The position numbers were made by a program, and so were the translations under genes. The notes below the pieces were generated by a model, which saw nothing but the letters and a program-made list of their open reading frames with translations, was not told the DNA's origin and ran no database searches. Below, piece by piece: positions 1 through 14,943 of a stretch of DNA of 64,000 nt (positions are counted from its first letter, which is position 1; every line of letters begins with the position of its first letter). The DNA comes from Deltaproteobacteria bacterium HGW-Deltaproteobacteria-19 (lineage in GTDB: Bacteria; Desulfobacterota; Syntrophia; Syntrophales; PHBD01): the NCBI GenBank assembly GCA_002841865.1, contig PHBD01000012.1, forward strand, positions 30,839 to 94,838. Reading direction: 5' to 3'.

Positions 1-1
1 C

Positions 2-82
2 GGGGCCGAGACGGCCTCCGTCGTCTCCCGCCTGCACCGGCGCGGGTGGAGGGGGCCGTTGTGGGAGCACCTGATCCCATGA
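2..82 (+). CDS. 3' end of an unidentified upstream gene (partial)
   Basis: An open frame enters from the left edge and stops with TGA at 80-82. The TGA overlaps the ATG at 79 of the next gene (ATGA), the usual sign of translational coupling, so the frame is probably real. Only 26 C-terminal residues are visible, basic and ending in HLIP. No family can be recognised. It is probably an upstream member of the lipid cluster that begins here. Confidence 0.5.
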   Translation, partial: GAETASVVSRLHRRGWRGPLWEHLIP

Positions 83-921
83 AGGCGGTTCGGTCCCCCT
101 GGTCGCCGGCCCACTGGACCGGCGTAGTGTCCCTGCTCTCTGCGGCCGTTGCGGGGTCCATGGAGCCCCTGTGGGCGGCCGGCCCTCTGGCTGTTTTCCT
201 TATGCTCTGCGGCACCCTCCCATTCTTTCACCGGTCGTCGTTCTTTCTGCCCGTCATAAGCAAAGGAAATCCAGGCAAAAACGCCGTTTCACTCACCTTC
301 GACGACGGGCCGGATCCCCAGGTTACGCCCCGCATTCTGGAACTTCTTGCCGCAGCGGGGGTCCCGGCGGCCTTTTTCGTGACGGGGGAACGGGCGGCCC
401 GCCACCCGGAGCTGATCCGGGCGATCCTCGCGGCGGGGCATGAGGTGGGCAACCATTCGTGGCATCACGATCCCCTGCTCATGCTCCGTCCGATGTCCGT
501 CCTGCGCCGGGAAGTCGAAGAGGCCCAGCGGATCTTCTCGGAGGCGGGAATCCGCCCGCGGGCGTTCCGTCCGCCCGTCGGGATCACCAATCCGCGTCTC
601 CCGATTGTGCTCCGCGAATCGGACATGATCTGCGTTACCTTCAGCCGCCGGGGCGCAGACTGGGGAAACCGCCGGGTGACGGGACTGGCGGGGCGGCTTT
701 TGCGAGGACTCCGCCCAGGCGACATCCTGCTTCTCCACGACGTCTCGCCCTCCGGGACCGGTGGGGTCGACCGCTGGCTGGCGGAAGTCGGCATCCTTCT
801 CCGGGGGCTCCGGGAGCGGTCGTTCGGAATTGTCCTTCTATCCGATCTGATTGGACAATCCGTCATGGAACGGACGTCCGGGTCGGGGAAAAAAGGTTTT
901 GATCCGGCAGGGCAAGAGTGA
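79..921 (+). CDS. NodB-type polysaccharide deacetylase, membrane-anchored
   Basis: The 280-residue protein starts with two hydrophobic N-terminal segments (about residues 15-50) followed by a NodB homology domain. All five NodB motifs are visible: TFDDGP (73-78), NHSWHH metal-binding histidines, RPFRPP-like FRPP, the ADW segment and the C-terminal LLHD. Members of this family remove N- or O-acetyl groups from polysaccharides or small acetylated substrates with a divalent metal. The ATG at 79 is chosen because it overlaps the upstream stop and has GGGAG ahead of it; the frame is open upstream and GTG codons at 46 and 61 are alternatives. In this cluster it may deacetylate a sugar or lipid head group, which is inference. 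Confidence 0.85.
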   Translation: MKAVRSPWSPAHWTGVVSLLSAAVAGSMEPLWAAGPLAVFLMLCGTLPFFHRSSFFLPVISKGNPGKNAVSLTFDDGPDPQVTPRILELLAAAGVPAAFFVTGERAARHPELIRAILAAGHEVGNHSWHHDPLLMLRPMSVLRREVEEAQRIFSEAGIRPRAFRPPVGITNPRLPIVLRESDMICVTFSRRGADWGNRRVTGLAGRLLRGLRPGDILLLHDVSPSGTGGVDRWLAEVGILLRGLRERSFGIVLLSDLIGQSVMERTSGSGKKGFDPAGQE

Positions 922-1022
922 TATAGAATCACGCTTTCATCGGCTTCCCTTGACAGGGTTCGGGCGGGAAACAATATCTCAGCTCCTCTTCAAGTTCCGG
1001 ACGTCCATTGCAGCGGGGGAAC

Positions 1023-1406
1023 ATGACCGAATACTGGCAGGACCTGAAGCTGGAAGGGAAAGAAACCTCCGGCAGACTTGTCGCGAAGGCGTTGTTCGCC
1101 CCGAAGTCGCTCTGGTTTTCCGGTCACTTCCCCGGATATCCCATTGTTCCGGGGGTGGCGTTGCTGTATCTGGTGGCGGAGGTTCTCCGTCGTGGCGAGG
1201 CTGAGGGAGATCGGATGACCGTGGAATCCATCCGGAGGGTCCGTTTCCGTCAGCCCGTTCGTCCGGGCGACAGCCTGACCGTTCTTGTCTCCACGGAAGA
1301 GGGGGGCAGGGATGGCGCGTATCTGTTCCGTCTTCTCTCTGGGGAAGAAACGGTCTGTACCGGATCCGTCCTGGCGCGCCTTGACCGGTCCGTGGATGCG
1401 CGTTGA
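1023..1406 (+). CDS. FabZ/ApeP-like hotdog-fold protein
   Basis: The 127-residue single hotdog protein carries the FabZ signature HFPGYPIVPG at residues 35-44. Enzymes of this family dehydrate 3-hydroxyacyl-ACP using this His together with a Glu 14 residues later. Here that position (49) is Tyr, so the canonical catalytic Glu is missing, although Glu53 lies nearby. The protein could be a modified dehydratase, as in aryl-polyene-type clusters, or a non-catalytic partner. The ATG at 1023 follows GGGGGA at an unusually short distance; a TTG at 1008 is the alternative. It lies 29 bp upstream of an ACP gene. Confidence 0.8.
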   Translation: MTEYWQDLKLEGKETSGRLVAKALFAPKSLWFSGHFPGYPIVPGVALLYLVAEVLRRGEAEGDRMTVESIRRVRFRQPVRPGDSLTVLVSTEEGGRDGAYLFRLLSGEETVCTGSVLARLDRSVDAR

Positions 1407-1435
1407 GAATACCGAAGTGTCGAGGAGGAAGATTG

Positions 1436-1711
1436 ATGTCTGAAGAAAAGGGCATTGAACAGCATATTCTTCGCATTGCCCAGATCGTCATCGATGAACT
1501 GAGGCTGGAGGATGTCACAAAGGAGACATTCGATCCCGACCTGGATCTCGTGGACGAGTTGGGGATCGACAGCATGGACCTGGCGACCGTAGCGCTCGTC
1601 CTTCAGGATGAATACGGTGTGAGCATCGACGAAGACGATTACCCCAAGCTGAAAACCCTCCGGCTGATCGCCGAATATATCCGGACCCGGCTTCAGGAAA
1701 AGGCTGCATGA
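1436..1711 (+). CDS. Acyl carrier protein (cluster ACP 1)
   Basis: This 91-residue acidic four-helix protein has the phosphopantetheine attachment motif LGIDSMDL with Ser46. It should carry growing acyl chains as thioesters for the ketosynthases downstream. A strong GAGGAGGAA ribosome site sits five bases before the ATG at 1436. The motif reads DSM rather than the DSL of housekeeping AcpP, as is common for specialised carrier proteins. It is one of three carriers in the neighbourhood. Confidence 0.93.
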   Translation: MSEEKGIEQHILRIAQIVIDELRLEDVTKETFDPDLDLVDELGIDSMDLATVALVLQDEYGVSIDEDDYPKLKTLRLIAEYIRTRLQEKAA

Positions 1712-1750
1712 TGCAGGAGATGGAAGACGATTCCGGCGAGGGAGGAGCCG

Positions 1751-2833
1751 TTGACGAATCGAACCGCCCCGGCGGACAAAACGGAAGGAAAATGGAAATT
1801 CGGCGATCTTCTTCGTGACGCCCGGGTGAAGGACCGGTGGGAGAAGGTTCGGAAATACTTCTTCCTGCGGGAATCTACCTATGACATGACCAACCGCTGC
1901 AACATCCGGTGCGACGGTTGTTACTATTACGAGGGAGAAAAGCAGTTTGCCCCGGAGAACCGGGATCCCGAGCCGTGGCAGGAGTTGATGCGGCAGGAGA
2001 AGGAACGGGGCATCACGTACGTGGTCCTGGCCGGCGCCGAGCCCTCCCTGGTTCCCGAGCTTCTCGATACCTGCTTCGAGATCATGCCCTTGGGGAGCAT
2101 CGCCACCAACGGATTCCGGCTGATCCCCCCCTCCATCGGCTACAAGATCCACATCTCCGTCTGGGGGAACGACGAAACGAGCCGGCGGGTCCGAAACGCC
2201 GCCAACCTCCTGGAGCGGCAACTCGACAACTACGACGGGGATCCCCGGGCGGTTTTCGTTTACACCTTCACCAGGCAGAACATCCATGAAGTCGGGGAAG
2301 TGGCCGAACGAATCGCCGCCCGCAACGGGAAGCTCACGTTCAATGTCTTTTCCGCCCCGGTCGGCTACGAGGGCCCCCTCCGGCACGACCGTTCTTCGCT
2401 GCTCCTGACCCGCCGGGCGATGCTGGAGACCATGGCTCGCCACCCTGAATCCGTGCTGTTTTCGAATTATAACGCGATGGCCCACACGTACGGGCAGGGG
2501 CTGCACGCCCTGTACGGCTGCTCCTATCCCCGCCGGAACGCCTCCACGGACATCGGTCTCGGGCGCTCCTTCCGGCAGTACCGGGCCGACCTGACCTGGG
2601 ACCGGAGCGTGGCCTGCTGCGTTCCCGACACGGATTGCGACGATTGCCGCCACTACGCCGCAGGCAGTGCCGTGGTGACGGCCCGCCTTTTCCGGCACGC
2701 CGCCGATCCCGACACCTTCCGCTCCTGGCTGGATTACGTGGACACGTACCTGGCGGTGTGGGTCATGGGTTACGAGAAGGGGGAGAATCTCTGTGACCGG
2801 CTGGTGGATCCGCCGGGATTCTCCATGGAATAA
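1751..2833 (+). CDS. Radical SAM enzyme 1 with a C-terminal cysteine cluster
   Basis: The 360-residue protein has the radical SAM motif CNIRCDGC (Cys50, 54, 57), which binds the [4Fe-4S] cluster that cleaves S-adenosylmethionine. A second cysteine group, Cys289, Cys290, Cys296 and Cys299, near the C terminus is suited to an auxiliary Fe-S cluster. The start is TTG at 1751, three bases after GGAGGAG; no in-frame ATG is better placed. It is a paralogue of the product at 3507-4505 (same N-terminal layout, shared 'TNRCN' and 'SxWG' segments and C-terminal cysteines). The substrate is unknown; context suggests an ACP-bound acyl chain or a lipid. Confidence 0.88.
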   Translation: MTNRTAPADKTEGKWKFGDLLRDARVKDRWEKVRKYFFLRESTYDMTNRCNIRCDGCYYYEGEKQFAPENRDPEPWQELMRQEKERGITYVVLAGAEPSLVPELLDTCFEIMPLGSIATNGFRLIPPSIGYKIHISVWGNDETSRRVRNAANLLERQLDNYDGDPRAVFVYTFTRQNIHEVGEVAERIAARNGKLTFNVFSAPVGYEGPLRHDRSSLLLTRRAMLETMARHPESVLFSNYNAMAHTYGQGLHALYGCSYPRRNASTDIGLGRSFRQYRADLTWDRSVACCVPDTDCDDCRHYAAGSAVVTARLFRHAADPDTFRSWLDYVDTYLAVWVMGYEKGENLCDRLVDPPGFSME

Positions 2834-2871
2834 CGCCCCGGGAGAACCGGGAATGACAGAAAGGATGGGCC

Positions 2872-3507
2872 ATGAAACCGAATTCCATAAAGTTCTGGAA
2901 AACCGGAGCCGCGCTGCTGATTGCGATGCTGTTTCTCGTGGGCTGCGGGGCTGCCGGGGGAGTCAAGGTGGCCGTCCAACAGGATAAGTACAGCCCCGGA
3001 TTCCGGGCCGCCGACGCAGGGCGGCTCAAGGGAAAACGGATCGTCCTTGCCTCCTTCATCAACCGGGCGGACAATACGAAGACGTGGAACTTCTACAGCC
3101 CGGACAAGAAGCTGGTTTATGAGACCTCGGCACCCTTGGAATCCTTCTTCTGGGAGTGCTACAGCAAGGCCTTCAAGCATGCCGGTGCCCGGATCGTAGA
3201 CTATCAGGGCACCGCCTACCGGGGCCCCGGACCCTGGTGGTGGGGGGGACCCGCTCCGACAGCCGCGACCGCCCCGAAGGGCGTTCCCGAGATCCAGCTT
3301 GTCCTGACCTCCGTTACGGACCAGGAAGTGCGTTTTCAGGTTTACGTTTTCAGGGACGGCGTCGAAAAATTCCGGAAGGACTACCAGGCGGCGATGCCTC
3401 CGGGCGCATCCCAGGACGTCAAGGACCTGGAGCAGCGGGCCTATGCCCTGGTCGACCTGACCTTCACGACCCTCGTCCGGGACCGGGATTTTCAGAAGGC
3501 TCTCTGA
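2872..3507 (+). CDS. Lipoprotein of unknown function in the lipid cluster
   Basis: The 211-residue protein begins with a lipoprotein signal: basic N terminus, hydrophobic core and lipobox LVGC (Cys about 25). A tryptophan/glycine/proline-rich patch (GPGPWWWGG) lies mid-protein. No catalytic family is recognised. Its stop overlaps the next start by one base (TGATG), so it is coupled to radical SAM enzyme 2 and flanked by both radical SAM paralogues. It may help deliver or anchor the product at the envelope, which is inference. Confidence 0.8.
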   Translation: MKPNSIKFWKTGAALLIAMLFLVGCGAAGGVKVAVQQDKYSPGFRAADAGRLKGKRIVLASFINRADNTKTWNFYSPDKKLVYETSAPLESFFWECYSKAFKHAGARIVDYQGTAYRGPGPWWWGGPAPTAATAPKGVPEIQLVLTSVTDQEVRFQVYVFRDGVEKFRKDYQAAMPPGASQDVKDLEQRAYALVDLTFTTLVRDRDFQKAL

Positions 3508-4505
3508 TGCAGACCGTCAGTTCCCTCCTCGACAGCGCCTGGCACGAGCGGTATCGGCGGATCTCGCGCCTGAACATCCGCAGTTCCATCTATGACGTGA
3601 CGAACCGGTGCAACCTGCGCTGCAAGGGCTGTTTTTTCTTCTCTTCGGGGGAGCACGAGGCCGCGGCGGACGAGGAAGACATCCGGCAGTGGGAGTCCTT
3701 CATCGACCGGGAGAAGGCCCGGGGCGTGAACATGGCCATCCTGATCGGCGGCGAGCCGACTCTCTTTCTGGACCGGGTGGAGGCATTCTACCGGCGGCTT
3801 CCGACCTACTGCGCCACCAACGGCCTGATCCGGGTTTCCCGGGACCGCTTCCCCGGCATGCTGGTGGGGATCTCCCTCTGGGGGGACGAGGATGACGAGA
3901 AGGCCCTCCGGGGACGGGACGTCTTCAGCGTTTCCCGGAAAAACTACGAGGGGGACGACCACACCTATTACCTGTATACCATCACCCCAAAGCAGATCGG
4001 ACGGACGGAGAAGATCATCCGGAAAATCGCCGACGCGGGGCTGAAGGTGCACATGCAACTCCTCACCAACGACGAGCAGGTGGAGGGTTTTCACTGGACG
4101 CCGGAGGCCCTCCGCGACGTCCGGGCGGAGATGGACGCGATGCTGGAGAGCTACCCCCGGACGGTCATCTCCTGCCGGTACTACCATGAGATCATCTGCA
4201 CCGGCATGATGATGGGCCGCCCCTTCGGCTGGAACGAATGCCCCTCCGTGACGGAGACCATGGATGACCGGGATCCGAGACCGAAGCGGCTCATCCGGTT
4301 CATCCGCTGGGCCGCCGACCTCAAGACGACGCACCGCTGCTGCACCTCCGCTACACGGGACTGTTCCATCTGCAAGGATGGGGCCGCCCACATGAGCTGG
4401 GTCATGGTGAACAAGCGCGAGCACATGCGTACGACCGGGGATCTCCAGAACTGGATCGAAGTGTACGAGATGTTCGCCAAGCTCTACGGCTTCATCCCCT
4501 GGTGA
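3507..4505 (+). CDS. Radical SAM enzyme 2 with a C-terminal cysteine cluster
   Basis: The 332-residue protein has CNLRCKGC (Cys35, 39, 42), the radical SAM cluster motif, then GGEP for SAM binding around residue 81. Near the C terminus Cys278, Cys279, Cys286 and Cys289 repeat the CC-x(5-6)-C-x2-C arrangement of the paralogue at 1751-2833. ATG at 3507 overlaps the preceding TGA. Longer frames reaching upstream would run across the lipoprotein gene and are rejected. The reaction is unknown; two tandem paralogues suggest sequential or heteromeric radical chemistry on one substrate. Confidence 0.88.
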   Translation: MQTVSSLLDSAWHERYRRISRLNIRSSIYDVTNRCNLRCKGCFFFSSGEHEAAADEEDIRQWESFIDREKARGVNMAILIGGEPTLFLDRVEAFYRRLPTYCATNGLIRVSRDRFPGMLVGISLWGDEDDEKALRGRDVFSVSRKNYEGDDHTYYLYTITPKQIGRTEKIIRKIADAGLKVHMQLLTNDEQVEGFHWTPEALRDVRAEMDAMLESYPRTVISCRYYHEIICTGMMMGRPFGWNECPSVTETMDDRDPRPKRLIRFIRWAADLKTTHRCCTSATRDCSICKDGAAHMSWVMVNKREHMRTTGDLQNWIEVYEMFAKLYGFIPW

Positions 4506-4542
4506 CAACCCGCCGAACCGCTTTACGAATCGACAGGATGGC

Positions 4543-5796
4543 ATGAGCCCCGACCAGAGACCGGTCATTCTCGGATACGACGCCGTTTCCCCGCTCGGGG
4601 TCGAGTGGGAGGACCAGTGGCGGCGGGCCGTCAAGGGCGAAAGCGGCATCGGGCCCCTGACACGCTTCCCCCTCCGGGAGGGGTTTCCCGTCCGGGTGGC
4701 CGGCCAGGTGGATGATTTCGACGAGACGCCCTATCCCTTTCTGAAGCCCCGGGAGATGGCCCACTGGACCTCTCCCATCTTCCGGCACGCCCTGCTGGTG
4801 GTTCATCGGGCGCTCCGGCGGGCCGGCCTCCCGATCACACCGGAAGAGGCGCCCCGGGTGGCGGTCACCTTCAGCACCGCCGTAGGCGGCCTCGACGCCG
4901 TCATCGCCGCCGACCGCCTCCTCGTGTCGGAGGGACGGTTGCCTCATCCCTTCACGAACGCCAATTCCTGCGTCAACATGGTGGGAGGAAAGGTGTCCAT
5001 CCTGACGGGAGCCACGGGACCCATCTGTTCCCCCATCACGGCCTGCGCCACCGGATCGTCCTCCCTGATCCTGGGGGCGATGTTCCTGCGGCAGGGAATG
5101 GCCGACGCCGCGATCTGCGGGGCCGTTGACTTTTCTCTCGTGGAGCCGATCGTCGCGGGCTTTGCCACGATGAACGGTGCCTACCGTCCCAAGGAGGGCC
5201 GGCCGGAGGAGGACCCCCGTGCCGTGAGCCGCCCCTTTTCCCGGAACCGGCGGGGATTTGTCATCTCCGAGGGTGCCGGGTGCTTCATCCTGGCCACGAA
5301 GGCCTTCGCCCGGGCTCACGGAATTCCCTGGCGGATTGAGGTGGCCGGCTGGGGGATGACCTCCGACGCCTACCACTTCGTGGCCCCCAAGCGGGAGACG
5401 ATCCGGCGCTGCATGGCCGAGGCGGTCGAGCACGCCGGCATCGCACCCGGCGACGTGGACGCGGTCAACGCGCATGCCGCCTCGACGAGGGTGGGCGACA
5501 GGGTGGAGGCGGAGGCCCTGGGGGATCTCTTCGGTGACAGGATTCCCCCCGTTTCGGCCAACAAGTCCCAGATCGGCCACGCCATGGGGGCCTCCAGCGC
5601 CATCGAGGCGCTTCTCGGCATCGAGGGGATGCTCCGGGACACCGTCCTGCCGACCATCAATTATGACCCGGATCCGGAGATCGTCCTGGACTGTGTGTCC
5701 GGAGAGGCCAGGCGCAGGGAACAGGAGTTCCTCCTGAAGAACGCCTTCGGCTTCGGCGGCTGCAACGCCTGCATCGTCTTTCGGAGGGTTGAATAG
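4543..5796 (+). CDS. Beta-ketoacyl-ACP synthase (cluster KS 1)
   Basis: This 417-residue FabF-type condensing enzyme retains the full triad: Cys168 in TACATGSSS, His311 in VNAHAAST and His346 in NKSQIGHAMGA. It should therefore catalyse decarboxylative Claisen condensation of an acyl thioester with malonyl-ACP rather than act as a chain-length factor. The HAAST motif replaces the usual HGTST but keeps the histidine. Its stop lies just before the ATG of KS 2, and the two look like a tandem pair. ATG at 4543 follows the 37-bp gap after radical SAM enzyme 2. Confidence 0.9.
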   Translation: MSPDQRPVILGYDAVSPLGVEWEDQWRRAVKGESGIGPLTRFPLREGFPVRVAGQVDDFDETPYPFLKPREMAHWTSPIFRHALLVVHRALRRAGLPITPEEAPRVAVTFSTAVGGLDAVIAADRLLVSEGRLPHPFTNANSCVNMVGGKVSILTGATGPICSPITACATGSSSLILGAMFLRQGMADAAICGAVDFSLVEPIVAGFATMNGAYRPKEGRPEEDPRAVSRPFSRNRRGFVISEGAGCFILATKAFARAHGIPWRIEVAGWGMTSDAYHFVAPKRETIRRCMAEAVEHAGIAPGDVDAVNAHAASTRVGDRVEAEALGDLFGDRIPPVSANKSQIGHAMGASSAIEALLGIEGMLRDTVLPTINYDPDPEIVLDCVSGEARRREQEFLLKNAFGFGGCNACIVFRRVE

Positions 5797-5797
5797 A

Positions 5798-7063
5798 ATG
5801 AGGCCCCCGCAGAACAGACGCGTCTTCGTCGTCGGATACGGTGCCGCCACGCCCCTGGGGGGGACCCTCGCCCGGACCTGGGAGCGGGCCGTTCGCGGCG
5901 AGGCGGGTTTCCGGACCATCACCCGCTGCCAGGTAGAAACGGCTTCGAATGTCGTCGGCGAGATTCCCGACTGGGACCCCCGGTCGTACCGCTTTGCCAG
6001 CGCCAAGGAGATCTACAACTGGAACGCCGCCTTCGTACTGCTCACCATGGCCCTCTGCAAGGAAGCCCTGGAAGACGCGGGCCTGGCCATGGATGCCGGG
6101 ACGGCGCCGCGAACGGCCTGCCTCGTCGGTTCGGCCCTCAACGGGACGGATGCGTTCCGCATTGCGGCGGAGCAGCTCCGGGAGCGGGGTCCCCTCCGGG
6201 TGAGCCCCTACCTGCTGCCCAATCTCTGCGCCAACCTGCCTTCCGGTAAGGCGGGGATTCTCCTGGGCTTCACCGGCCCCGTCTTTTCCCCCCAGGGGGC
6301 GTGCGCGTCAGGAAACCACGCGATCGGTCTCGGGGCCCGCATGATCCGGGACGGAGACTGCGATTTCGTCCTCGCCGGGGGCGTGGACATGCCGATCCTG
6401 CCGGAGCTGGTGCACGGTTTCGAGAACATGAACGCCACCATCAAAATCGGACCGAAGGACCGGGCCTGGAGCGATCCATCCCTCGCCTCCCGGCCTTTCA
6501 GCCGGGACCGGCGGGGCTTCGTCCTGTCGGAGGGCGGGGCCGTCCTCGTTCTGGCGGCGGAGGACCGGCTGAACTCGCAGGGGCTGGTACCCAGAGCGGA
6601 GGTCCTCGGGGTGGGCTGGACCTCCGATGCGTTCCACTTCACGAATCCGCGGCAGGAAACCATCGTTCGGGCGATCCGCGAGGCCATTTCCGACGGGGGG
6701 ATTTCCCCGGCAGACGTGCAGTATGTCAACGCCCACGGTACATCCACGCCGAAGGGAGACGCCGCGGAGGTCGCCTGCCTTCGGGAGGTCTTCGGCCGCC
6801 ACCTGAAAAGGATGGCCGTGTCCTCCAATAAGTCCCAGATCGGCCACACCCTGGGAGCAGCGGCGGCCATCGAGGCAGTCCTCACCATCGAGGGCATGAG
6901 GCGGGGAGTGATCCTGCCCACCATCAACCACCTTCCGGATCCTGCGCTGGAAGACGTAGACTTCGTGCCCAACGAAACAAGGAGACAGGCCGTGGAGATC
7001 GCCCTGTCGAACGCCTTCGGCTTCGGCGGCACCAACTGCTGCATTCTCTTCCGGGGAACATGA
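5798..7063 (+). CDS. Beta-ketoacyl-ACP synthase (cluster KS 2)
   Basis: The 421-residue FabF-type protein has Cys169 in QGACASGN, His313 in VNAHGTSTPKGD and His350 in NKSQIGHTLGA, so it is predicted to be active. The ATG at 5798 is chosen because GGAGGG ends about ten bases before it; the TTG at 5789 lies only one base from that site. KS 1 and KS 2 are tandem and similarly built, like type II KS pairs. Unlike classical KS/CLF pairs, neither partner has lost its cysteine, so they may perform different elongation steps. Confidence 0.9.
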   Translation: MRPPQNRRVFVVGYGAATPLGGTLARTWERAVRGEAGFRTITRCQVETASNVVGEIPDWDPRSYRFASAKEIYNWNAAFVLLTMALCKEALEDAGLAMDAGTAPRTACLVGSALNGTDAFRIAAEQLRERGPLRVSPYLLPNLCANLPSGKAGILLGFTGPVFSPQGACASGNHAIGLGARMIRDGDCDFVLAGGVDMPILPELVHGFENMNATIKIGPKDRAWSDPSLASRPFSRDRRGFVLSEGGAVLVLAAEDRLNSQGLVPRAEVLGVGWTSDAFHFTNPRQETIVRAIREAISDGGISPADVQYVNAHGTSTPKGDAAEVACLREVFGRHLKRMAVSSNKSQIGHTLGAAAAIEAVLTIEGMRRGVILPTINHLPDPALEDVDFVPNETRRQAVEIALSNAFGFGGTNCCILFRGT

Positions 7064-7147: not shown

Positions 7148-7627
7148 ATGAAACCGAAACCCTTTCTTCCGGAGCCCCTGGCAGGGGATGCGCGTTTCGT
7201 CCGGGATCGCACCACGGGGCTGGTCTGGCACCGCTGCACCAACCGGACCCTGTACGCCGACACGGACCGGTCCTCCGTGGTCTACCATGCCAATTACCTC
7301 CGCTATTTCGAGATGGGGCGGGCGTCCCTGATGCGCGACGCTGCCTACCCGTACCGGGAGATCGAGGAGAGCGGGTTCGTTTACCCCATCATCGATCTCG
7401 GGCTCCAGTTCTTCCAGCCGCTGCGCTACGACGATCCCATGTGGATCCATACACGCCCGGGCGATCTGGAGCGGGTCCGCCTCCGGTTCGATTACGTCGT
7501 TACACATGCCGAAACAGGTGTCCTCGTCTGCAAGGGCCACACGCGTCACTGTGCGCTGAACCGGGCGGGAAGGCCCGTGGCCGTGGACCCCAAAACGGTT
7601 CACCTGTGGAAGAGTTTTCCGTCATGA
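7148..7627 (+). CDS. 4HBT/YbgC-type acyl thioesterase
   Basis: This 159-residue hotdog protein has the hallmark segment YADTDRSSVVYHANYLRYFE (about residues 37-56), where the family's conserved Asp and YHxxYL lie. Such enzymes hydrolyse acyl-CoA or acyl-ACP thioesters and could release or proofread chains made by the adjacent ketosynthases. ATG at 7148 is favoured over an upstream in-frame GTG/ATG at 7097 because homology to the family starts just after it. Its TGA overlaps the next ATG (ATGA at 7624). Confidence 0.87.
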   Translation: MKPKPFLPEPLAGDARFVRDRTTGLVWHRCTNRTLYADTDRSSVVYHANYLRYFEMGRASLMRDAAYPYREIEESGFVYPIIDLGLQFFQPLRYDDPMWIHTRPGDLERVRLRFDYVVTHAETGVLVCKGHTRHCALNRAGRPVAVDPKTVHLWKSFPS

Positions 7628-8514
7628 CGGCGAGGGAGAGCGACTGCCTGAGGATCGCCGTACCGGCTTATCTGCGGGACCATACCTTCGAGGGACGGGT
7701 GATCCTGCCCGCCGTGGAGATCCTGGAAATCCTCGCCGACTTCGTGCAGAGACGCTTTCCGGAAATACCCGTGTGGATCATGGAGGAGGCCTTTTTTCCC
7801 CGGTTTCTCGTCCTCGATCCCGCATGGACCACCCTGAACGCCCGGATCGAATGGCAGTTGCTCGATGCCGGACGCGTGAAGACGGTCCTCGGGACGGTGG
7901 TCCGTTCACGGTCGGGAGCCATCGGCCGGCTGGCGGTGCACGGGACGGCCGTCTTCGGGGGGGAGACGAAGACGGAGCCGATCCCGGGAATGGACCGGGA
8001 GGCGGATCGGTCGGATCGGTTCGCCGTTCCCGCCGAGCGGCTGTATCGGGATCTGGTTCCCTTCGGCCCGGCCTATCGGAACGCCCGGGATCCCATCCAT
8101 GTCTGGGAGGAAGGAGCGGAGGCCATTGTGGAGGCCCCGGCCGGGGGCGATCCCCGGCGTTTTCTCGGATCCCCCTTCCCGCTGGACGCGGCTCTGCATG
8201 TTGCCTGCGCCTGGTGCCAGCGTTACGGCGACACGGTGGCGCTCCCCGTCGGTTTCGGGAGCCGGCGGATCGTCCAGCCAATCGTACCCGGCGAATCCTG
8301 CCGGGCGCGGATCGCCGCGAAAGGTTTATCGGAGGGGGCGTTCCTCTTCGACATCCTGATCCTTGGTTCCGATGAACGCCTGCGGGAGGAGCTGTCGGGA
8401 GTCCGGATGCGGGACGTGAGCCAGGGACGCCTGCGGCCGCCCGACTGGATTCGGGTCGGGAAGCAGGGGGCCGTTGAAGACTCGTCGCCGGGAAATGGGA
8501 ACCCCCCCGCTTGA
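7624..8514 (+). CDS. PKS-type dehydratase, double hotdog
   Basis: The 296-residue protein resembles a stand-alone polyketide synthase dehydratase domain. The N-terminal hotdog has the exact HxxxGxxxxP motif (His20, HTFEGRVILP) and the C-terminal hotdog has DxxxH (Asp188, DAALH). These are the catalytic His and Asp that remove water from 3-hydroxyacyl-ACP. It is therefore the more convincing dehydratase of the cluster, in contrast to the FabZ-like protein at 1023 that lacks its Glu. Coupled to the thioesterase by a 4-bp overlap. Confidence 0.82.
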   Translation: MTARESDCLRIAVPAYLRDHTFEGRVILPAVEILEILADFVQRRFPEIPVWIMEEAFFPRFLVLDPAWTTLNARIEWQLLDAGRVKTVLGTVVRSRSGAIGRLAVHGTAVFGGETKTEPIPGMDREADRSDRFAVPAERLYRDLVPFGPAYRNARDPIHVWEEGAEAIVEAPAGGDPRRFLGSPFPLDAALHVACAWCQRYGDTVALPVGFGSRRIVQPIVPGESCRARIAAKGLSEGAFLFDILILGSDERLREELSGVRMRDVSQGRLRPPDWIRVGKQGAVEDSSPGNGNPPA

Positions 8515-8641
8515 CTTTTCAGGGATTGGAAAGATACAAGGAGACGGATGGTGTGAACGGAACGCCGGCGCTCCCTGCGGAACGGATCTTCACGGCGGTC
8601 CCGATGGATCCCGATTTCAGAAAGGTGCTTTGAACAGGAAC

Positions 8642-8941
8642 ATGACACGTGAGGCGATCGAAGCCGAAATCCGGCGGATTTTTCTTCAGGAGTTCGAGAT
8701 AGAAGACCCGGCCATGGACGTGGATCTCCGGGAGGCCTACCAGTTCGACAGCATCGACGCCATCGAACTGCTGGTGGAGATCGAGCGGTTCCTGGGTTCC
8801 GAGCTGACCATGGAGGAGAAGAAGCGGGCCATGGACATCCGAACGGTCCGCCAGATCTGTTCTTACGTGGAAGAACTCGTGCGGGCCCGCCGACCCGGCG
8901 AAAGCCTTCCCATCGGAGACTTATGCAAAGAAGGGTCGTAA
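8642..8941 (+). CDS. Acyl carrier protein (cluster ACP 2)
   Basis: This 99-residue carrier has the attachment motif FDSIDAIEL with Ser37. It overlaps the start of KS 3 by 19 bp in another frame, so the two are probably made together and work as a pair. ATG at 8642 is used; a TTG at 8630 has a better spaced AAAGGTG ahead of it and would add four residues. The sequence is clearly different from ACP 1, suggesting different partners. The 127 bp before it hold no other recognisable gene. Confidence 0.9.
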   Translation: MTREAIEAEIRRIFLQEFEIEDPAMDVDLREAYQFDSIDAIELLVEIERFLGSELTMEEKKRAMDIRTVRQICSYVEELVRARRPGESLPIGDLCKEGS

Positions 8942-10158
8942 TCACTGCAGCCTCCGCCATTACGCCCATCGGCCACGGCCGGGAGGATATCCTGCGGAGC
9001 CTCCGGGAAGGGGTCTCGGGCGTGAAGCCCCTCCGGCAGGACGATCTCCTGGCGCCCTTCATCCATTCCCAGGTCTTCGGCACCGTCGATTATCCCATTC
9101 CTTTCGACTTCAAACGGGTCAACCGGAAGACCATGGGGCCCGTCAGCTATTACGCATGCCAGGTGGCGAAGGAGGTTCTCGAGGCGTCCGGCCTGGAGCA
9201 GGAGTTCATCACCTCCGGCCGGCTGGGGGTGGCCTTCGGATCCACCCACGGCAGTCCCACGGTGCAGCGGGAAATCTACAAGGTCTTTCACAGCAGGGAC
9301 CGTGCGGGCGTTTCCTCCATCGGAGCGGTGGACTACCTGAAATCCATGGTCCATACAACGGCCGTGAACATCACCAAGATGTTCGGCATCACCGGCCGCG
9401 TCATCGCCTCGTCGACGGCCTGCACCACCAGCAGCCAGTCCATCGGGTTCGGGTACGAGGCCGTCCGGTACGGCATGCAGGATGCCATGCTTTGCGGAGG
9501 GGCCGACGAATACGACACCACCACGGTGGCCGTCTTCGACAACCTCCTCGCCTGCTCCACCGATTTCAACGATACACCACAACGGACGCCCCGTCCCTTC
9601 GACGTTCGCCGCGACGGCCTCGTCGTGGGGGAGGGAGCGGGAGCGGTCCTCCTGGAGGAATACGAGTCCGCCCGGAAACGGGGAGCGACCATCCTGGCGG
9701 AAGTTGCCGGATTCGCCTGCAACAACAACGGCGGGGACCTGATCCTGCCGAATCTGGTGGGAATCCGCGAGACTCTGCGACTGGCGCTCCGGGATGCCGA
9801 CATGGCGCCCGAGGAGATCGATCTCATCAGCGCCCACGCGACGGCCACCAGGATGGGGGACATCATTGAGGCCCAGGCCATTTCCGCCGTCTACGGAGAC
9901 CGTCCTCTCGTCACGGCCCTGAAGAGCTACATGGGGCACACCATGGCCTCCTGCGGGGTAATTGAGACGGTCCTGATCCTCTATATGATGCAGGAGGGGT
10001 TTGTCGCCCCGACCCTGAACCTGGAGGAGGTGGATGAGCGGTGTGCCATGATCCGTCACGCCACCTCTATCGTGAAGACTCCCGTTCGGGCTGCAGCCGT
10101 CCAGAACTTCGCCTTCGGAGGGGTCAATACGGGCCTTGTCCTCCGGAAGGAACCGTGA
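8923..10158 (+). CDS. Beta-ketoacyl-ACP synthase (cluster KS 3)
   Basis: This 411-residue condensing enzyme keeps Cys167 (SSTACTTSS), His305 (ISAHATAT) and His339 (SYMGHTMAS). It differs from KS 1 and KS 2 in the loops around these sites and in its unusual HATAT and LKSYMGH motifs, which resemble the FabB/ApeO-like branch. The start overlaps ACP 2. Three active ketosynthases in one locus imply either alternative starter and extender selectivity or separate rounds of chain elongation. Confidence 0.9.
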   Translation: MQRRVVITAASAITPIGHGREDILRSLREGVSGVKPLRQDDLLAPFIHSQVFGTVDYPIPFDFKRVNRKTMGPVSYYACQVAKEVLEASGLEQEFITSGRLGVAFGSTHGSPTVQREIYKVFHSRDRAGVSSIGAVDYLKSMVHTTAVNITKMFGITGRVIASSTACTTSSQSIGFGYEAVRYGMQDAMLCGGADEYDTTTVAVFDNLLACSTDFNDTPQRTPRPFDVRRDGLVVGEGAGAVLLEEYESARKRGATILAEVAGFACNNNGGDLILPNLVGIRETLRLALRDADMAPEEIDLISAHATATRMGDIIEAQAISAVYGDRPLVTALKSYMGHTMASCGVIETVLILYMMQEGFVAPTLNLEEVDERCAMIRHATSIVKTPVRAAAVQNFAFGGVNTGLVLRKEP

Positions 10159-10174
10159 TTTCCCCTCCCGGACG

Positions 10175-11038
10175 ATGCAGATGAATTCACCGCAACCCAT
10201 GAACCTCCGCCGCTCCGTTTTCAGGGCGCTGCTCGACCTCCTGGTGACGCTCCTGCTGTGGGTGTATTTTCTGGCGGGCACCCTGATTCTGCCTTTCTAC
10301 GGAATGGCGCACCTGTTCTCGAACGACCGGGAAGCTACGTTTCAGGGGATGAACAGCCGTTTCTACCGGGGTTTCTTCCGCCTGGTCCAGTGGCTGATCC
10401 CCGGGCTTTCCCTCAGGATCGGGGCAGACGTCCGCACGCTTCGCTCGACGGTCATCGTCTCGAACCACCTGTCCTATCTCGATCCGATCCTGTTCCTCTC
10501 CATCTTCGACCGGCAGAAGACAATCGTCCGAAGCGATTTTTTCCACTATCCGATTTTCGGCTGGGTCCTGAAGACGGCGGGCTACCTCCCCTCCTCGGCG
10601 AACGGGGATCTCTTCTCGACCCTCATGATCAAGCGGGTGGAGGACATGGACCGATACCTCTCCACGGGCGGGAATCTCTTCATCTTCCCCGAGGGGACGC
10701 GGAGCCGGGACGGCCGGCTCCACCCCTTCAGCCGGGGGGCCTTCCGGATCGCCGCCCGCTGCCGCGCGCCGCTCGGTGTAGTCAGGATCACGAATACCCA
10801 CCGGCTGTTCCCGCCGGACCGGTTTCTCTTTCACACGGGCATCCGGGAACCGGTGACCATCGAGTTGCTGGCACTTTTGCACCCCGAGTGGGATGCGCCG
10901 GACTTTTCGCTCAACGACCTGATCGCCCGGGTACAGGCCCTGTACGACGAGCGGGAGCGTCAGGAACGGGAGCGGGATTTTGCGGAAGCGGGCGGCCCCG
11001 ACGGGAAGCCGCCGGCGGAAGGGGCAGGGACGCCGTGA
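10175..11038 (+). CDS. PlsC-family lysophospholipid acyltransferase
   Basis: The 287-residue membrane-associated protein has one long N-terminal hydrophobic segment (about residues 15-45), the catalytic NHLSYLD (HX4D, His98-Asp103) and the acceptor-binding FPEGTRSRDG (171-180). Enzymes of this family move an acyl group from ACP or CoA to a lysophospholipid. No clear ribosome site separates ATG 10175 from ATG 10181. Its end overlaps the PlsY-like gene. Placed beside a dedicated elongation system, it probably esterifies the cluster's acyl product. Confidence 0.88.
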   Translation: MQMNSPQPMNLRRSVFRALLDLLVTLLLWVYFLAGTLILPFYGMAHLFSNDREATFQGMNSRFYRGFFRLVQWLIPGLSLRIGADVRTLRSTVIVSNHLSYLDPILFLSIFDRQKTIVRSDFFHYPIFGWVLKTAGYLPSSANGDLFSTLMIKRVEDMDRYLSTGGNLFIFPEGTRSRDGRLHPFSRGAFRIAARCRAPLGVVRITNTHRLFPPDRFLFHTGIREPVTIELLALLHPEWDAPDFSLNDLIARVQALYDERERQERERDFAEAGGPDGKPPAEGAGTP

Positions 11039-11661
11039 CGGACTGCCTGCTGTGGGTGGGGGCCGTCTATGCCGCCGCCTCGGTGAACTTCGCCATCCTT
11101 GTCCTTTCCATCCTGAAGAAGGGGGATCCCCGGAACCGCTTCAGCGGAAACGCCGGAACCACCAATGTCTACCGGATGGCCGGTCCTTTCTGGGCGGTGG
11201 CGGTTCTTCTCCTGGACGTGGGAAGGGCCGTGGCCGTGGCGGTTCTGGGAACGATGTTCCTGCCGATGGCCCAGGTTCCCTGGTTGGGGCTGGCGCTGGT
11301 AGCGGGGAACCGGTATCCCTGTTTCCACGGCTTCCGGGGCGGGAAGGGCGTGGCCGCCTACCTGGGATTCGCGGGAGCCTTGGCCCCGTGGGCTGCGGCT
11401 CTGGCAGCGGCGCTCTGGGTGGCTGTCTTTGCGCTGGTCCGGGTCCCCTTCGTGGCCTCCTTTTTCATGATCGCCGCCCTTGCAACGGGAGAAGGACTGG
11501 CTGCCGGAGGGTCTGCAGGTCCCGCCTTTGCAGTGACGGCGACGGTCATCCTGATCCTGGCGGGTCATTGGCGGAACATCCGGGACATTGGGAAGGGGCA
11601 TAAGGCGGAGGTCTCCACGATCGAGTCGGAGACGGGCAAAACCGGCCCGGAGGCGGGCTGA
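11035..11661 (+). CDS. PlsY-like acyl-phosphate:glycerol-3-phosphate acyltransferase
   Basis: This 208-residue multi-pass protein shows the PlsY signatures SGNAGTTN (37-44), GGKGVA (102-107) and a C-terminal GHWRNIRDIGKG. PlsY transfers acyl groups from acyl-phosphate to the sn-1 position of glycerol-3-phosphate. The start is GTG at 11035, overlapping the preceding stop. It is divergent from housekeeping PlsY (for example NFAILVLSILKKGDPR at the first motif), so this may be a paralogue specialised for the cluster's acyl chain. No PlsX, which makes acyl-phosphate, is visible. Confidence 0.83.
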   Translation: MTDCLLWVGAVYAAASVNFAILVLSILKKGDPRNRFSGNAGTTNVYRMAGPFWAVAVLLLDVGRAVAVAVLGTMFLPMAQVPWLGLALVAGNRYPCFHGFRGGKGVAAYLGFAGALAPWAAALAAALWVAVFALVRVPFVASFFMIAALATGEGLAAGGSAGPAFAVTATVILILAGHWRNIRDIGKGHKAEVSTIESETGKTGPEAG

Positions 11662-11674
11662 CGGGAGGAGCATC

Positions 11675-12193
11675 ATGAAGAAAGAGGAAGTGCCTCAAGA
11701 CAATATCCGCCATTTTCGGACCGCCCGCAAGGCCGCCTATGTCGTGGACGAGGAGGGGCATTACACGACCGTTCCGACCACCGGCTGGAATGTGGAGGAG
11801 GTGATCCTGTACCAGGCCATCGGGGAATTCGAGGAGCAGGCGGAAACGTGTCGGCAGCGCGTCGCCCGCGGGGAAGACTCGCCCATCGCCTACTTCATGT
11901 TCAAGCGCCGTATGGATCCGACAGTCCTGGCCCAGGCCATGGGCCTGCCGCGGTGGCGGGTCAGGCGGCACTTGAAGGGAAAGGTCTTCGCCCGGATGGG
12001 AGAGGGGCTCCTGAAGGAATACGCCAGGGTCCTGCGGGTCCCCCTGGACGCCCTCACGCCGTTCCGGCCCGACGTGCTGGAGCAGGAGACCTATGAGCTT
12101 CCACCCGGTCTCTCCACGGCGGACCGGCAGGCCGGACGAACCCCCGGCCCGGAATCGACAGCCGGGGAATCTTCCCGGAGGAGCACCCCTTGA
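11675..12193 (+). CDS. Helix-turn-helix protein of the lipid cluster
   Basis: The 172-residue protein has a Cro/C1-like helix-turn-helix around residues 80-125 (LAQAMGLPRWRVRRHL), preceded by a region that resembles no catalytic domain and followed by a Pro/Ser/Thr-rich tail. GGGAGGAG stands six bases before ATG 11675. Its stop overlaps the TTG start of the BtrH-like gene. It could regulate the cluster or act as a non-DNA-binding adaptor; neither is shown by the sequence. Confidence 0.75.
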   Translation: MKKEEVPQDNIRHFRTARKAAYVVDEEGHYTTVPTTGWNVEEVILYQAIGEFEEQAETCRQRVARGEDSPIAYFMFKRRMDPTVLAQAMGLPRWRVRRHLKGKVFARMGEGLLKEYARVLRVPLDALTPFRPDVLEQETYELPPGLSTADRQAGRTPGPESTAGESSRRSTP

Positions 12194-13188
12194 AGCACGT
12201 CATCGACTTCGAACACCGCCACTACGGGCACTGCGAGAGCGGCGTCGTCTCCGGCCTTCTCCGGCACAGCGGGCTCGACCTCTCGGAGGCCATGGTTTTC
12301 GGGCTTGCCAGCGCCATCATGTTCGCCTACGTTCCGTTCCTCCGGATGAACAACATGCCGACCATTTCCTACCGGATCCTGCCCCGGACCATCATCAGCG
12401 GCATCCAGAGCCGCCTCGGCATCCCCTTCCGGAAGCAGACCTATCGGGATCCGGGCCGGGCGATGGAGGAACTGGTCGATTTCATGCGGAGAGGTCAGAT
12501 CGTGGGGCTCCAGACCTCGGCGTACTGGCTCACGTACTTTCCCCCGGAGATGCGATTCCAGTTCAACGTTCACAACCTGATCGTGTTCGGGGTCGAAGAC
12601 GGAGAGTTCCTGGTGAGCGATCCCGTTTTCGAGCATCCCGTCCGCATCCCGGCGACGGACCTGGAGAATGCCCGTTTCGCCCGGGGCGTCATGGCCCCGA
12701 AGGGATTCGTCTACCACCCCGAAGGGGTCCCGTCGTCGGTCGACCTGCCGGTCCTGATCCGGAAAGCCATTGCCCGGACCCTCTTCATGATGCTCTCCTC
12801 GCCGCCGCCCTTCGGGATCCGCGGAATCTTCTACCTGGCCCGGAAAATCGAGCGGATGGAGCGGAGCAAAGACGGCCGCTATATTCGCCTGTTCCTCGGT
12901 CACATGGTGAGAATGCAGGAGGAGATCGGAACCGGCGGAGGAGGGTTTCGCTTCATGTACGCCGCATTTCTCCAGGAGGCGGCGGATATCCTGAACTCGG
13001 CCGCCCTTCTGGAGGCGTCCCGGAAAATGACCCTGGCGGGTGACCAGTGGCGGACCTTTGCCCTGGCCTGCGCCCGGATCATCCGGCAGCGCGACGGTGC
13101 TCCGGATCTGAAGGAAATCGCCGCCCTGCTCAGACGCTGCGGCGAGGTGGAGCGGGACGTGTATGTCCTGCTGAAAAAGGGAATCTGA
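12190..13188 (+). CDS. BtrH-like acyltransferase (BtrH N-terminal plus DUF4872-like region)
   Basis: The 332-residue protein begins with the segment HRHYGHCESGVVSGLL, the cysteine-containing opening of the BtrH N-terminal family (Cys15 as likely nucleophile), followed by a helical C-terminal region like that fused to BtrH domains. In butirosin biosynthesis BtrH moves an acyl group from a carrier protein to an amine of the aminoglycoside. Here it may take an acyl group from a cluster ACP and attach it to an amine or alcohol. The start is TTG at 12190, seven bases after GGAGGA and overlapping the upstream stop. Confidence 0.78.
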   Translation: MKHVIDFEHRHYGHCESGVVSGLLRHSGLDLSEAMVFGLASAIMFAYVPFLRMNNMPTISYRILPRTIISGIQSRLGIPFRKQTYRDPGRAMEELVDFMRRGQIVGLQTSAYWLTYFPPEMRFQFNVHNLIVFGVEDGEFLVSDPVFEHPVRIPATDLENARFARGVMAPKGFVYHPEGVPSSVDLPVLIRKAIARTLFMMLSSPPPFGIRGIFYLARKIERMERSKDGRYIRLFLGHMVRMQEEIGTGGGGFRFMYAAFLQEAADILNSAALLEASRKMTLAGDQWRTFALACARIIRQRDGAPDLKEIAALLRRCGEVERDVYVLLKKGI

Positions 13189-13209
13189 TCTCAGCGCGAG
13201 GGATTGCCG

Positions 13210-14649
13210 ATGCGCATCGCTCTGGTCCAGCCGGCGGGGTCCAACTGGGTCCGGGGCCGGCAGGACATGGCCGCCGTGGCCAACCGGATGGCCCCGCTGG
13301 GCCTCCTCTCCATTGCCGCCTGGCTCGAGCGGGAAGGACATGAGGTGTCCGTCCTGGACTGCCTGGGGCCCGGCGCCACGCCGGGCGGGGAGGCGATCGT
13401 CCGAAGCCTGCTCGGCTTCCGCCCCGACCTGGTGGGATTTTCCACCACTACCTCCAGCTTTCTCGACGGCCATGCGCTGGCGGTTCGGCTGAAAGAGGCC
13501 GATCCGGGGATCCGGACCGTCTTCGGCGGCGTTCACGTATCGGCCGTTGGCGGGGCGCTCCTGGAGCGATTCGCGGCCATCGATTATCTCTGTCCCGGCG
13601 AGGGGGAGGTCACCCTGGCGGCGCTGGCCGGCGGCGCGGATCCGAAGGAAATCGACGGCCTCATCCGACGCGACGGGGAAAGCGTCGTCACCAACCGGGA
13701 CCGCAAGCCGCTTCAGGACCTGGATCTGCTTCCTTTCCCGGCATATTACCTGCTCCGGGGGTTTCCGCGGGGCTATAACCTGCCTCTCTTCAGCTACATC
13801 CGGACGCCGGGGGCCACGCTGGTGACAAGCCGCGGCTGCCCCTACCGCTGCAGCTACTGCGACCGGTCCGTCTTCCGGCAGTCCTACCGCATGAACTCAC
13901 CCGAATATATCCACGAGCACCTGAGCCACCTGCGGCGGCATTTCGGGGTGCGCCATGTCAATATTTACGACGATCTGTTTACGGCCCACCGCCCGCGGAT
14001 CGCCGAGCTCTGCCGGCTTCTGTGCTCCCGGCCCCTGGGGATCCAGTTCAACTGTGCCGTCCGGGTGGGCCATACGGATCGGGAACTCCTCAAGATGCTG
14101 AAGGAGGCGGGGTGCCTGATGGTTTCCGTGGGGGTCGAGTCGGGGGAGCCGGAGCTCCTGGCCCGTCACAAGGCCGGGGTGACCCTGGAAGAGATCCGGG
14201 AGACCGTGGCCATGATCCGGGAAAGCGGGCTCCGGGCAAAGGGGCTCTTCATGATGGGACTCCCCGGCGAGACCGAGGAATCGATCCGGAAGACGAGCGA
14301 CTTCTGCCTGTCGCTGGGACTGGACGACATGAACATGGCAAAGTTCACGCCGTTCCCCGGGGCGCCCGTCTGGGGAACCATACGGGAGGAGGGGACCTTC
14401 GAAGAGGACTGGCCGCTGATGAACTGCCTGAACTTCGTCTTTGTGCCCGGGGGCATTGCTTCGCGTGAGCGCCTCGATGAACTGTACAACCGGCACGTGA
14501 AGCGGTTCTACACCGATCCGGACTGGCGGCGGCGCCTGATACGCCGGACCTGGCAGCACCGCTGGAGCCTCTGGTACCTTTTCATCCACCTGCCCCAGTT
14601 CTGGACGGCGAAGAACTCTTTCGAGCCACGGGGAGAATCGACCCCGTAA
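13210..14649 (+). CDS. B12-binding radical SAM enzyme
   Basis: The 479-residue class B-type protein has an N-terminal Rossmann-like cobalamin-binding region (residues 1-140, with the FGGVHVSA segment) and then CPYRCSYC (Cys210, 214, 217) for the SAM-cleaving cluster. Such enzymes methylate unactivated carbons, form rings or rearrange carbon skeletons. ATG 13210 is chosen because GAGGGA lies six bases upstream; TTG 13204 is rejected. It is the last plus-strand gene of the cluster and likely modifies the acyl chain or head group. Confidence 0.87.
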   Translation: MRIALVQPAGSNWVRGRQDMAAVANRMAPLGLLSIAAWLEREGHEVSVLDCLGPGATPGGEAIVRSLLGFRPDLVGFSTTTSSFLDGHALAVRLKEADPGIRTVFGGVHVSAVGGALLERFAAIDYLCPGEGEVTLAALAGGADPKEIDGLIRRDGESVVTNRDRKPLQDLDLLPFPAYYLLRGFPRGYNLPLFSYIRTPGATLVTSRGCPYRCSYCDRSVFRQSYRMNSPEYIHEHLSHLRRHFGVRHVNIYDDLFTAHRPRIAELCRLLCSRPLGIQFNCAVRVGHTDRELLKMLKEAGCLMVSVGVESGEPELLARHKAGVTLEEIRETVAMIRESGLRAKGLFMMGLPGETEESIRKTSDFCLSLGLDDMNMAKFTPFPGAPVWGTIREEGTFEEDWPLMNCLNFVFVPGGIASRERLDELYNRHVKRFYTDPDWRRRLIRRTWQHRWSLWYLFIHLPQFWTAKNSFEPRGESTP

Positions 14650-14663
14650 ACCGCCGCGAATCG

Positions 14664-14690
14664 GGGCACCCCGGCCGCGGATGCCCTATT
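14664..14690 (+). terminator. Weak candidate terminator
   Basis: GGGCA at 14664-14668 can pair with TGCCC at 14682-14686, followed by TATTTTG. The stem is only five pairs with a long GC-rich loop. It lies between convergent genes, where termination is expected. Confidence 0.25.
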
Positions 14691-14943
14691 TTGTCCGATT
14701 ATCGTGAATGTAGGCAGCCAGGGCATTGAGAGAGGCAAAGACCTTTACGCCCAGTTCCTTGTTGTCGATCTTGACCCCGTAATCCTTCTCGATCATCATC
14801 ACCAGTTCGAGCACGTCGATGGAGTCCAGACCGAGGTCTCCGCCGACAAGCGCCCCTCCCTCGTCGATATCCTCCGGTTCCACGTCGAGTAGGCCCAGCG
14901 TGGAAATAATCTTCTTTTTCAATTCCTGCTTCAGGTTGTCCAT
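14686..14943 (-). CDS. Acyl carrier protein (ACP 3, opposite strand)
   Basis: The 85-residue carrier has the attachment motif GLDSIDVLEL with Ser41. It is last in a minus-strand run behind the genes at 15412-17535 and 14994-15389 and converges on the radical SAM gene at 14649. Its DSID motif is like ACP 2, so it may serve the plus-strand cluster although transcribed separately. AAGGA precedes the ATG at 14943 with very short spacing. Confidence 0.92.
   Translation of the reverse strand: MDNLKQELKKKIISTLGLLDVEPEDIDEGGALVGGDLGLDSIDVLELVMMIEKDYGVKIDNKELGVKVFASLNALAAYIHDNRTK

Follow-up and report, generated by a model that had tools for sequence, protein, structure and literature searches.

A 64,000-nucleotide stretch of DNA from a Deltaproteobacteria bacterium (HGW-Deltaproteobacteria-19; G000:C34:30839-94838 within a 3.98 Mb assembly, hereafter the window) carries at positions 2-14943 a dense set of acyl-chain genes that forms the right-hand half of a larger cluster, the other half of which occupies roughly 30 kb on the window's upstream side. 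We consider it reasonably probable that this cluster builds an aryl-primed polyene on acyl carrier protein (ACP), tailors it with radical S-adenosylmethionine (SAM) enzymes, hands it on to an acceptor, either a lipid or a sugar, and exports it. The locus is best filed as a variant of the aryl-polyene (APE) kind with a radical SAM core that is widespread in anaerobic lineages. Gene content, intact catalytic motifs, synteny and co-occurrence were all observed directly and are described below.

Gene content and proposed pathway

Genes A-Q (cf. Table 1) all lie on the plus strand, and the ACP gene R on the minus strand closes the stretch 2-14943. Since the intergenic spacing there is -19 to +127 bp, the arrangement is operon-like, and since some 50 further genomes are syntenic for the core, the gene set is not a chance assembly. 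Family matches recovered every enzyme class that the initial annotation of 2-14943 had named, including a BtrH-like acyltransferase (P, identified as DarH), three ketosynthases (KS; G, H and L) with complete Cys-His-His triads, which are invariant among relatives, and three radical SAM enzymes (D, F and Q), one of which (Q) has a B12-binding domain. Its outline of a chain built on ACP, modified by radical chemistry and moved to an acceptor likewise appears to be the natural reading of the gene set. DarG (O) had not been named, and the half of the cluster with the ammonia-lyase, the ligase and the exporter lay outside the window. Once that half was included, the statement that the set looks unlike any nameable pathway was no longer supported, as most genes match the APE cluster of Escherichia coli CFT073 and the flexirubin/dialkylresorcinol genes DarG, DarH, FlxB and LolA2.

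Using phmmer, counterparts were found for 12 of the 17 CFT073 APE proteins (ApeR, Q, P, O, M, K, J, I, H, F, E and D; these names follow published usage), among them ApeQ, ApeI, ApeP, ApeE/F and ApeH (scores in Table 1). The counterparts of LolA and DUF3261 were assigned by family match alone, and that of the chain-length factor by position and weak KS similarity (u18). Five radical SAM enzymes are encoded in the full cluster (D, F, Q, u08 and u20), three of them of the B12 type (u20, u08 and Q).

From these genes we infer each chemical step, namely the starter, the chain length, the radical reactions and the acceptor, as well as the product. The aromatic ammonia-lyase u07 would make a cinnamate-type starter from an aromatic amino acid, and the ApeH-like ligase u13 would load it onto ACP. 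The KSs (ApeO-like u17 with u18, G, H and ApeR-like L), the FlxB/ApeQ-type ketoreductase and the dehydratases (ApeP-like, B and J) would then extend the chain, presumably to a polyene, because no enoyl reductase is present in the cluster. D and F, together with the B12-type enzymes, may modify the ACP-bound chain by methylation, cyclisation or coupling. Thioesterase I, the PlsC-type M, the PlsY-type N and DarH would transfer it to glycerol, a sugar or another acceptor, and the GT2 glycosyltransferase, the deacetylase, LolA and the MMPL exporter would place the product in the outer membrane. The methyltransferase domain fused to the exporter u02 possibly stands in for ApeB, and the small membrane protein S is probably a further cluster gene. 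N is the sole PlsY-family (PF02660) gene found in the assembly, which favours either a glycerol acceptor or a shared phospholipid role; though a cluster gene, it may serve ordinary phospholipid synthesis too.

The ammonia-lyase u07 keeps the ASGDL motif, and its FHGCGTG motif is invariant in seven carriers. It is of the same superfamily as the FlxA tyrosine ammonia-lyase, with a score under the cut-off of that model (291 bits, cut-off 700). We set aside an ordinary histidine ammonia-lyase, as the best solved matches were tyrosine aminomutases and no copy at ≥60% identity was found among relatives outside genomes carrying F. Furthermore, u07 has NQDKVSM at the position where histidine lyases carry QED, which was weighed against that assignment.

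Conservation and co-occurrence

Of 119 relatives, 51 have the radical SAM gene F, as do 68 of 194 Desulfobulbales genomes, and it was detected at 302 places in the genome_contigs collection, the best 80 of which belonged to Desulfobacterota, Spirochaetota and one Planctomycetota record. The related genomes are Syntrophales, and the same-order contigs recurring in the F search were records of Syntrophaceae, Smithella and Syntrophales. Neighbourhoods were counted wherever the sequence ran for at least 9 kb beyond F in the relevant direction, reading flanks of 10 kb (48 loci upstream, 50 downstream). Upstream, B, C and D were each present in 48/48 loci, a TIGR04072-type u20 in 42 and an R-type ACP in 38, while FlxB (25), LolA2 (23) and u08 (20) were counted only if inside the flank; downstream, G was present in 49/50 loci, H in 48, I and J in 47 each, and N in 28. 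E is missing in most relatives, where D and F are directly adjacent. The core operon (dehydratase, ACP, two radical SAM enzymes, two KSs, thioesterase and polyketide-type dehydratase) was found in 47-49 of the 48-50 complete neighbourhoods. Its carriers are mostly Desulfobacterota and Spirochaetota, with synteny holding across phyla, and include the cultured Desulfogranum japonicum DSM 18378 and Desulfosarcina widdelii PP31.

The initial annotation had proposed a check for conserved co-occurrence, and the genes proved not to be independently distributed, as seen from the core synteny and from the close ammonia-lyase (≥60% identity), which occurs in 44 of the 119 relatives, all 44 carrying F. 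Similarly, u08 was found in 47 relatives, all of them F carriers, and DarH in 41, of which 40 carry F. This nesting also extends to genes on other contigs and speaks for a single pathway. An alternative is that the locus houses two adjacent pathways, one for an aryl polyene and a separate membrane fatty-acid or phospholipid pathway (core operon plus PlsY) yielding a specialised glycerolipid for anaerobic membranes. In its favour, an ACP, two KSs, dehydratases and a thioesterase come with the core operon itself, and the genome's only PlsY found is N. We nevertheless regard two pathways as unlikely, since the ammonia-lyase and u08 occur solely where the core radical SAM enzyme is encoded, roughly half of the upstream neighbourhoods show APE-type genes (u09-u12, u17) next to the core operon, most of them have an R-type ACP there, and separate housekeeping fab gene sets exist.

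Several points weigh against a single aryl-primed pathway: (i) PlsY and PlsC could serve ordinary phospholipids; (ii) the 10 kb downstream of F contain DarG/DarH in only 3/50 relatives and the K-L-M set in only 6/50, although DarH is usually present elsewhere in the genome; (iii) the Fisher p values for co-occurrence, 1e-20 to 1e-28, are inflated by genome relatedness; and (iv) the Desulfobacterales and Desulfobulbales carriers tested lack a close ammonia-lyase, having 33-43% homologues or none, so that different lineages must differ in their starter step although they share the core. A close ammonia-lyase was present in 3/5 Spirochaetota tested.

In a tree of D+F+G+H, Desulfobulbales and Desulfobacterales stood broadly apart from Syntrophales, and Spirochaetota stood next to Syntrophales; 'Myxococcota' phylum labels were disregarded, as they derive from 'Deltaproteobacteria' records. 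This topology suggests that the core operon is old and was probably transferred to Spirochaetota. In Planctomycetota, the F search returned one genome with a true operon (G119) and four distant homologues (32-35%) in unrelated neighbourhoods. Two further Planctomycetota (G330, G157; loci L177, L178) have u08 at 56-59% with B12-radical SAM, KS, LolA2 and lysophospholipid acyltransferase (LPLAT) genes; neither D nor F was seen in the part read. The cluster is ancient and common to several hundred anaerobic bacteria, and it probably builds a pigment-like aromatic outer-membrane lipid altered by radical enzymes.

Other genes are interspersed among the upstream cluster genes, namely ClpA/ClpS and a leucyl-tRNA transferase, all named from sequence, and an arsenite methyltransferase, the last lying within the cluster both in the source genome and in G001. 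A FabA similar to that of the fab-like set on the same contig (cf. Table 1) occurs near the radical SAM module in eight relatives.

Table 1. Genes of the cluster and its surroundings; positions without a prefix are those of the window.
Gene	Assignment	Position	Strand	Matches and remarks
A	Polysaccharide deacetylase, NodB-type	79..921	+	PF01522 105 bits; start uncertain, reading frame open to window edge
B	FabZ/ApeI-like 3-hydroxyacyl-ACP dehydratase	1023..1406	+	PF07977; motif HFPGYPIVPG; ApeI 29 bits
C	ACP	1436..1711	+	PF00550; phosphopantetheine Ser46 invariant, 63 relatives
D	Radical SAM enzyme, Cys-rich C-terminal (auxiliary-cluster-like) region	1751..2833	+	PF04055; TTG start uncertain
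E	Lipoprotein-like gene, no family	2872..3507	+	No match in Pfam or NCBIfam; seen in source genus; outside conserved core
F	Radical SAM enzyme, very strongly conserved	3507..4505	+	PF04055
G	FabF-like KS	4543..5796	+	PF00109/PF02801; full triad C168/H311/H346, invariant in 69 relatives
H	FabF-like KS	5798..7063	+	PF00109/PF02801; full triad C169/H313/H350, invariant in 62 relatives
I	YbgC/4HBT-type acyl thioesterase, ApeK-like	7148..7627	+	TIGR00051 77.9 bits, above cut-off; ApeK 64 bits
J	Polyketide-type dehydratase	7624..8514	+	PF14765; motifs HTFEGRVILP, DAALH; His20 and Asp188 invariant, 50 relatives
K	ACP, ApeF-like	8642..8941	+	PF00550; ApeF 28 bits
L	KS, ApeR counterpart	8923..10158	+	ApeR 300 bits; PRK09116 397.9 bits, under cut-off 470; triad C167/H305/H339 invariant in 9 relatives
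M	PlsC-type acyltransferase, ApeD-like	10175..11038	+	PF01553; ApeD 57 bits
N	PlsY-type acyltransferase	11035..11661	+	PF02660 108.6 bits
O	DarG-family protein of dialkylresorcinol/flexirubin loci	11675..12193	+	NF053536 148.6 bits, cut-off 70
P	DarH, BtrH-type acyltransferase	12190..13188	+	NF053550 436.5 bits, cut-off 300
Q	B12-binding radical SAM enzyme, HpnJ/BchE-like	13210..14649	+	PF02310, PF04055; best NCBIfam HpnJ 186.6 bits, far under cut-off 577.6
R	ACP, ApeE-like	14686..14943	-	PRK09184 75.3 bits, cut-off 70; ApeE 51 bits
S	Small membrane protein, no family	14994..15488	-	Adjoins R-type ACP or exporter in many relatives
T	Large coiled-coil protein, no family	15412-17535	-	About 60% identity homologues near cluster in L045, L089
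u01	LpxL-type acyltransferase	upstream 30 kb		ApeJ 41 bits
u02	MMPL exporter	L003:6060-9149	-	ApeM 45 bits; C-terminal methyltransferase domain
u04	GT2 glycosyltransferase	upstream 30 kb		ApeJ 113 bits
u06	Thioesterase	upstream 30 kb		ApeK 66 bits
u07	Aromatic ammonia-lyase	upstream 30 kb		MIO family
u08	Radical SAM enzyme with B12-binding domain	upstream 30 kb
u09	DUF3261-like lipoprotein	upstream 30 kb		Family match only
u10	LolA2	upstream 30 kb		LolA2_flexi 86.3 bits, under cut-off 125
u11	FlxB-type reductase (ketoreductase)	upstream 30 kb		FlxB 297.6 bits, under cut-off 340; ApeQ 190 bits
u12	Hotdog dehydratase	upstream 30 kb		ApeP 39 bits
u13	4-Coumarate-CoA-ligase-like enzyme	upstream 30 kb		ApeH 109 bits
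u14, u15	ABC transporter	upstream 30 kb
u16	ACP	upstream 30 kb
u17	KS	upstream 30 kb		ApeO 132 bits
u18	KS-like, neighbour of u17	upstream 30 kb		Weak KS similarity; no ApeC match
u20	B12-radical SAM enzyme	directly before window		TIGR04072 ('ladderane' family) 384.7 bits, cut-off 360
	Arsenite methyltransferase	L002:17128-17964	-
	FabD/KASIII/FabA/FabG/FabZ/FabB/ACP-like set	G000:C34:153-160 kb (L234)

Radical SAM enzymes and the anammox ladderane loci

Both D and F have the CxxxCxxC motif and, in AlphaFold models, a predicted radical SAM fold. D further keeps C257, C289, C290, C296 and C299 in the relatives aligned, and all eight Cys of F are invariant across 80 relatives; these conserved C-terminal cysteines would be suited to an auxiliary cluster. 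Mean column identity amounted to 74% for D and 86% for F (48 sequences), the latter suggesting one specific, important product. The model of D (predicted local distance difference test, pLDDT, 82) had BlsE, viperin and SkfB as nearest solved folds (Z 15-16), and that of F (mean pLDDT 75.5) is weak around its clusters. Since the fold comparison matched only general radical SAM relatives (BlsE, viperin, SkfB, anSME and tetraether synthase), the reaction of D and F cannot be read from their fold. F had no sequence match in the PDB at 0.01, and against the NCBIfam subfamilies both enzymes scored ≤31 bits, far under the cut-offs.

The combination of FabF-like and radical SAM genes had reminded the initial annotation of the clusters proposed for anammox ladderanes. 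In support of this, u20 scores above the cut-off of TIGR04072, although the locus is better filed under the aryl-polyene kind. TIGR04072 exceeded its cut-off in 21/392 Planctomycetota genomes. Five sampled genomes with a hydrazine synthase alpha of typical size were taken as anammox, and four anammox copies scored 412-440 bits. The anammox TIGR04072 locus (L174, L175) contains a deacetylase, tandem KS, a PaaK-like ligase, a radical SAM enzyme, ACP, FabZ, a methyltransferase, MMPL, a desaturase-like oxidoreductase, GT2 and PlsC, several of them named from sequence, and this content agrees with Rattray et al. 2009 (PMC2649909). A ladderane-type pathway, in which fused carbocycles would arise from an ACP-bound polyene by radical SAM-driven cyclisation (a route proposed and not demonstrated for anammox bacteria), could draw on this likeness and on the phytoene-desaturase-like and PaaK-like genes found with the cluster in some relatives. 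We consider it very unlikely here for the following reasons: (i) F had no homologue at 1e-15 in the sampled anammox genomes; (ii) identity between the two loci is 22-36% for KS, B12-radical SAM, FabZ, GT2 and PlsC, whereas an ACP and, in one, the reductase reach 42%; (iii) the phytoene-desaturase-like oxidoreductase, present in L174, is absent from the source genome's cluster (L003, L002 and window positions 1-15488); and (iv) Desulfotalea psychrophila has clusters syntenic with the anammox ones, yet no ladderanes were found in it (PMC2649909). The anammox pathway is likewise unproven, because heterologous expression of Kuenenia genes gave no ladderanes (PMC4790861).

A bolder version, quite unlikely in our view, is that the D/F pair and the TIGR04072 enzyme act on an ACP-bound aryl polyene to give a lipid that is carbocyclic or cross-linked. 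Sulfate reducers, syntrophs and spirochaetes would then have an aromatic counterpart to ladderane biosynthesis and, if this is true, their culturable members would be the first tractable system for ladderane-type chemistry. In Desulfobacterota metagenome-assembled genomes from the Cariaco Basin, clusters annotated as 'ladderane' are reported to be expressed, with a function unknown to that study (PMC9902471). They belong to the same phylum and possibly represent the same kind of locus.

Comparison with known systems

Few bacterial natural products are commoner than aryl polyenes, which are known as pigments of the outer membrane, chiefly in bacteria exposed to oxygen; in the present cluster, whose lineages are mostly anaerobic, five radical SAM enzymes accompany the same machinery. 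With the CFT073 cluster the present one shares KSs (ApeO, ApeR), ketoreductase (ApeQ), dehydratases (ApeP, ApeI), ligase (ApeH), two ACP types, thioesterase, LPLAT, GT2 and MMPL exporter. In addition, it has the five radical SAM enzymes, KSs G and H, the polyketide-type dehydratase, PlsY, the ammonia-lyase, DarG/DarH and an ABC transporter, whereas the ApeB methyltransferase has no separate counterpart other than the domain fused to the exporter. Literature searches returned nothing on aryl polyenes with radical SAM enzymes in Deltaproteobacteria or on arylpolyenes with ladderanes in Desulfobacterota, so that, as far as the literature was searched, the cluster product is unreported.

With the flexirubin clusters of Chitinophaga pinensis and Flavobacterium johnsoniae are shared an ammonia-lyase and ligase start, an FlxB-type reductase, a LolA2-type carrier, a polysaccharide deacetylase, an exporter and DarG/DarH (PMC3992019). 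Flexirubin (flxP) and arcuflavin clusters are described with a deacetylase gene like A (PMC3992019, PMC3949708), and the anammox locus L174 has one too. O and P exceed the curated cut-offs of NF053536 and NF053550, and the FlxA, FlxB and LolA2 flexirubin models all score under theirs. A flexirubin-like ester, in which DarH would join an aryl polyene to a dialkylresorcinol or similar phenol and the radical SAM enzymes would act only as C-methyltransferases, would account for DarG, DarH, the FlxB-like and LolA2-like genes and the lyase of the histidine/tyrosine ammonia-lyase family, and C. pinensis flexirubin does incorporate a methionine-derived methyl group (PMC3992019). We hold such an ester to be highly improbable, since D and F are without a B12-binding domain and neither DarA nor DarB had a match among the locus proteins (46 kb read; the rest of the genome was not searched for them). 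Unlike flexirubin clusters, the locus has a radical SAM module and no DarA/DarB.

Returning to the radical SAM-tailored aryl polyene that we favour, the cluster links two questions, the products of non-anammox 'ladderane-like' clusters and the action of radical SAM enzymes on ACP-bound chains, and the cultured carriers offer a place to test both. The anammox fatty-acid synthesis/ladderane clusters and the deltaproteobacterial clusters syntenic with them (PMC2649909) share with it TIGR04072, several fabF paralogues, ACP, FabZ, deacetylase, an MMPL-type membrane protein and a glycosyltransferase. Unlike the anammox locus, the present cluster has F and the APE genes and is without the desaturase-like and PaaK-like genes, and since the sampled anammox genomes are without F, the two clusters are not the same. 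The present cluster and the anammox ladderane cluster are cousins from a common gene pool, the former differing in its radical SAM core and carrying the APE set in addition.

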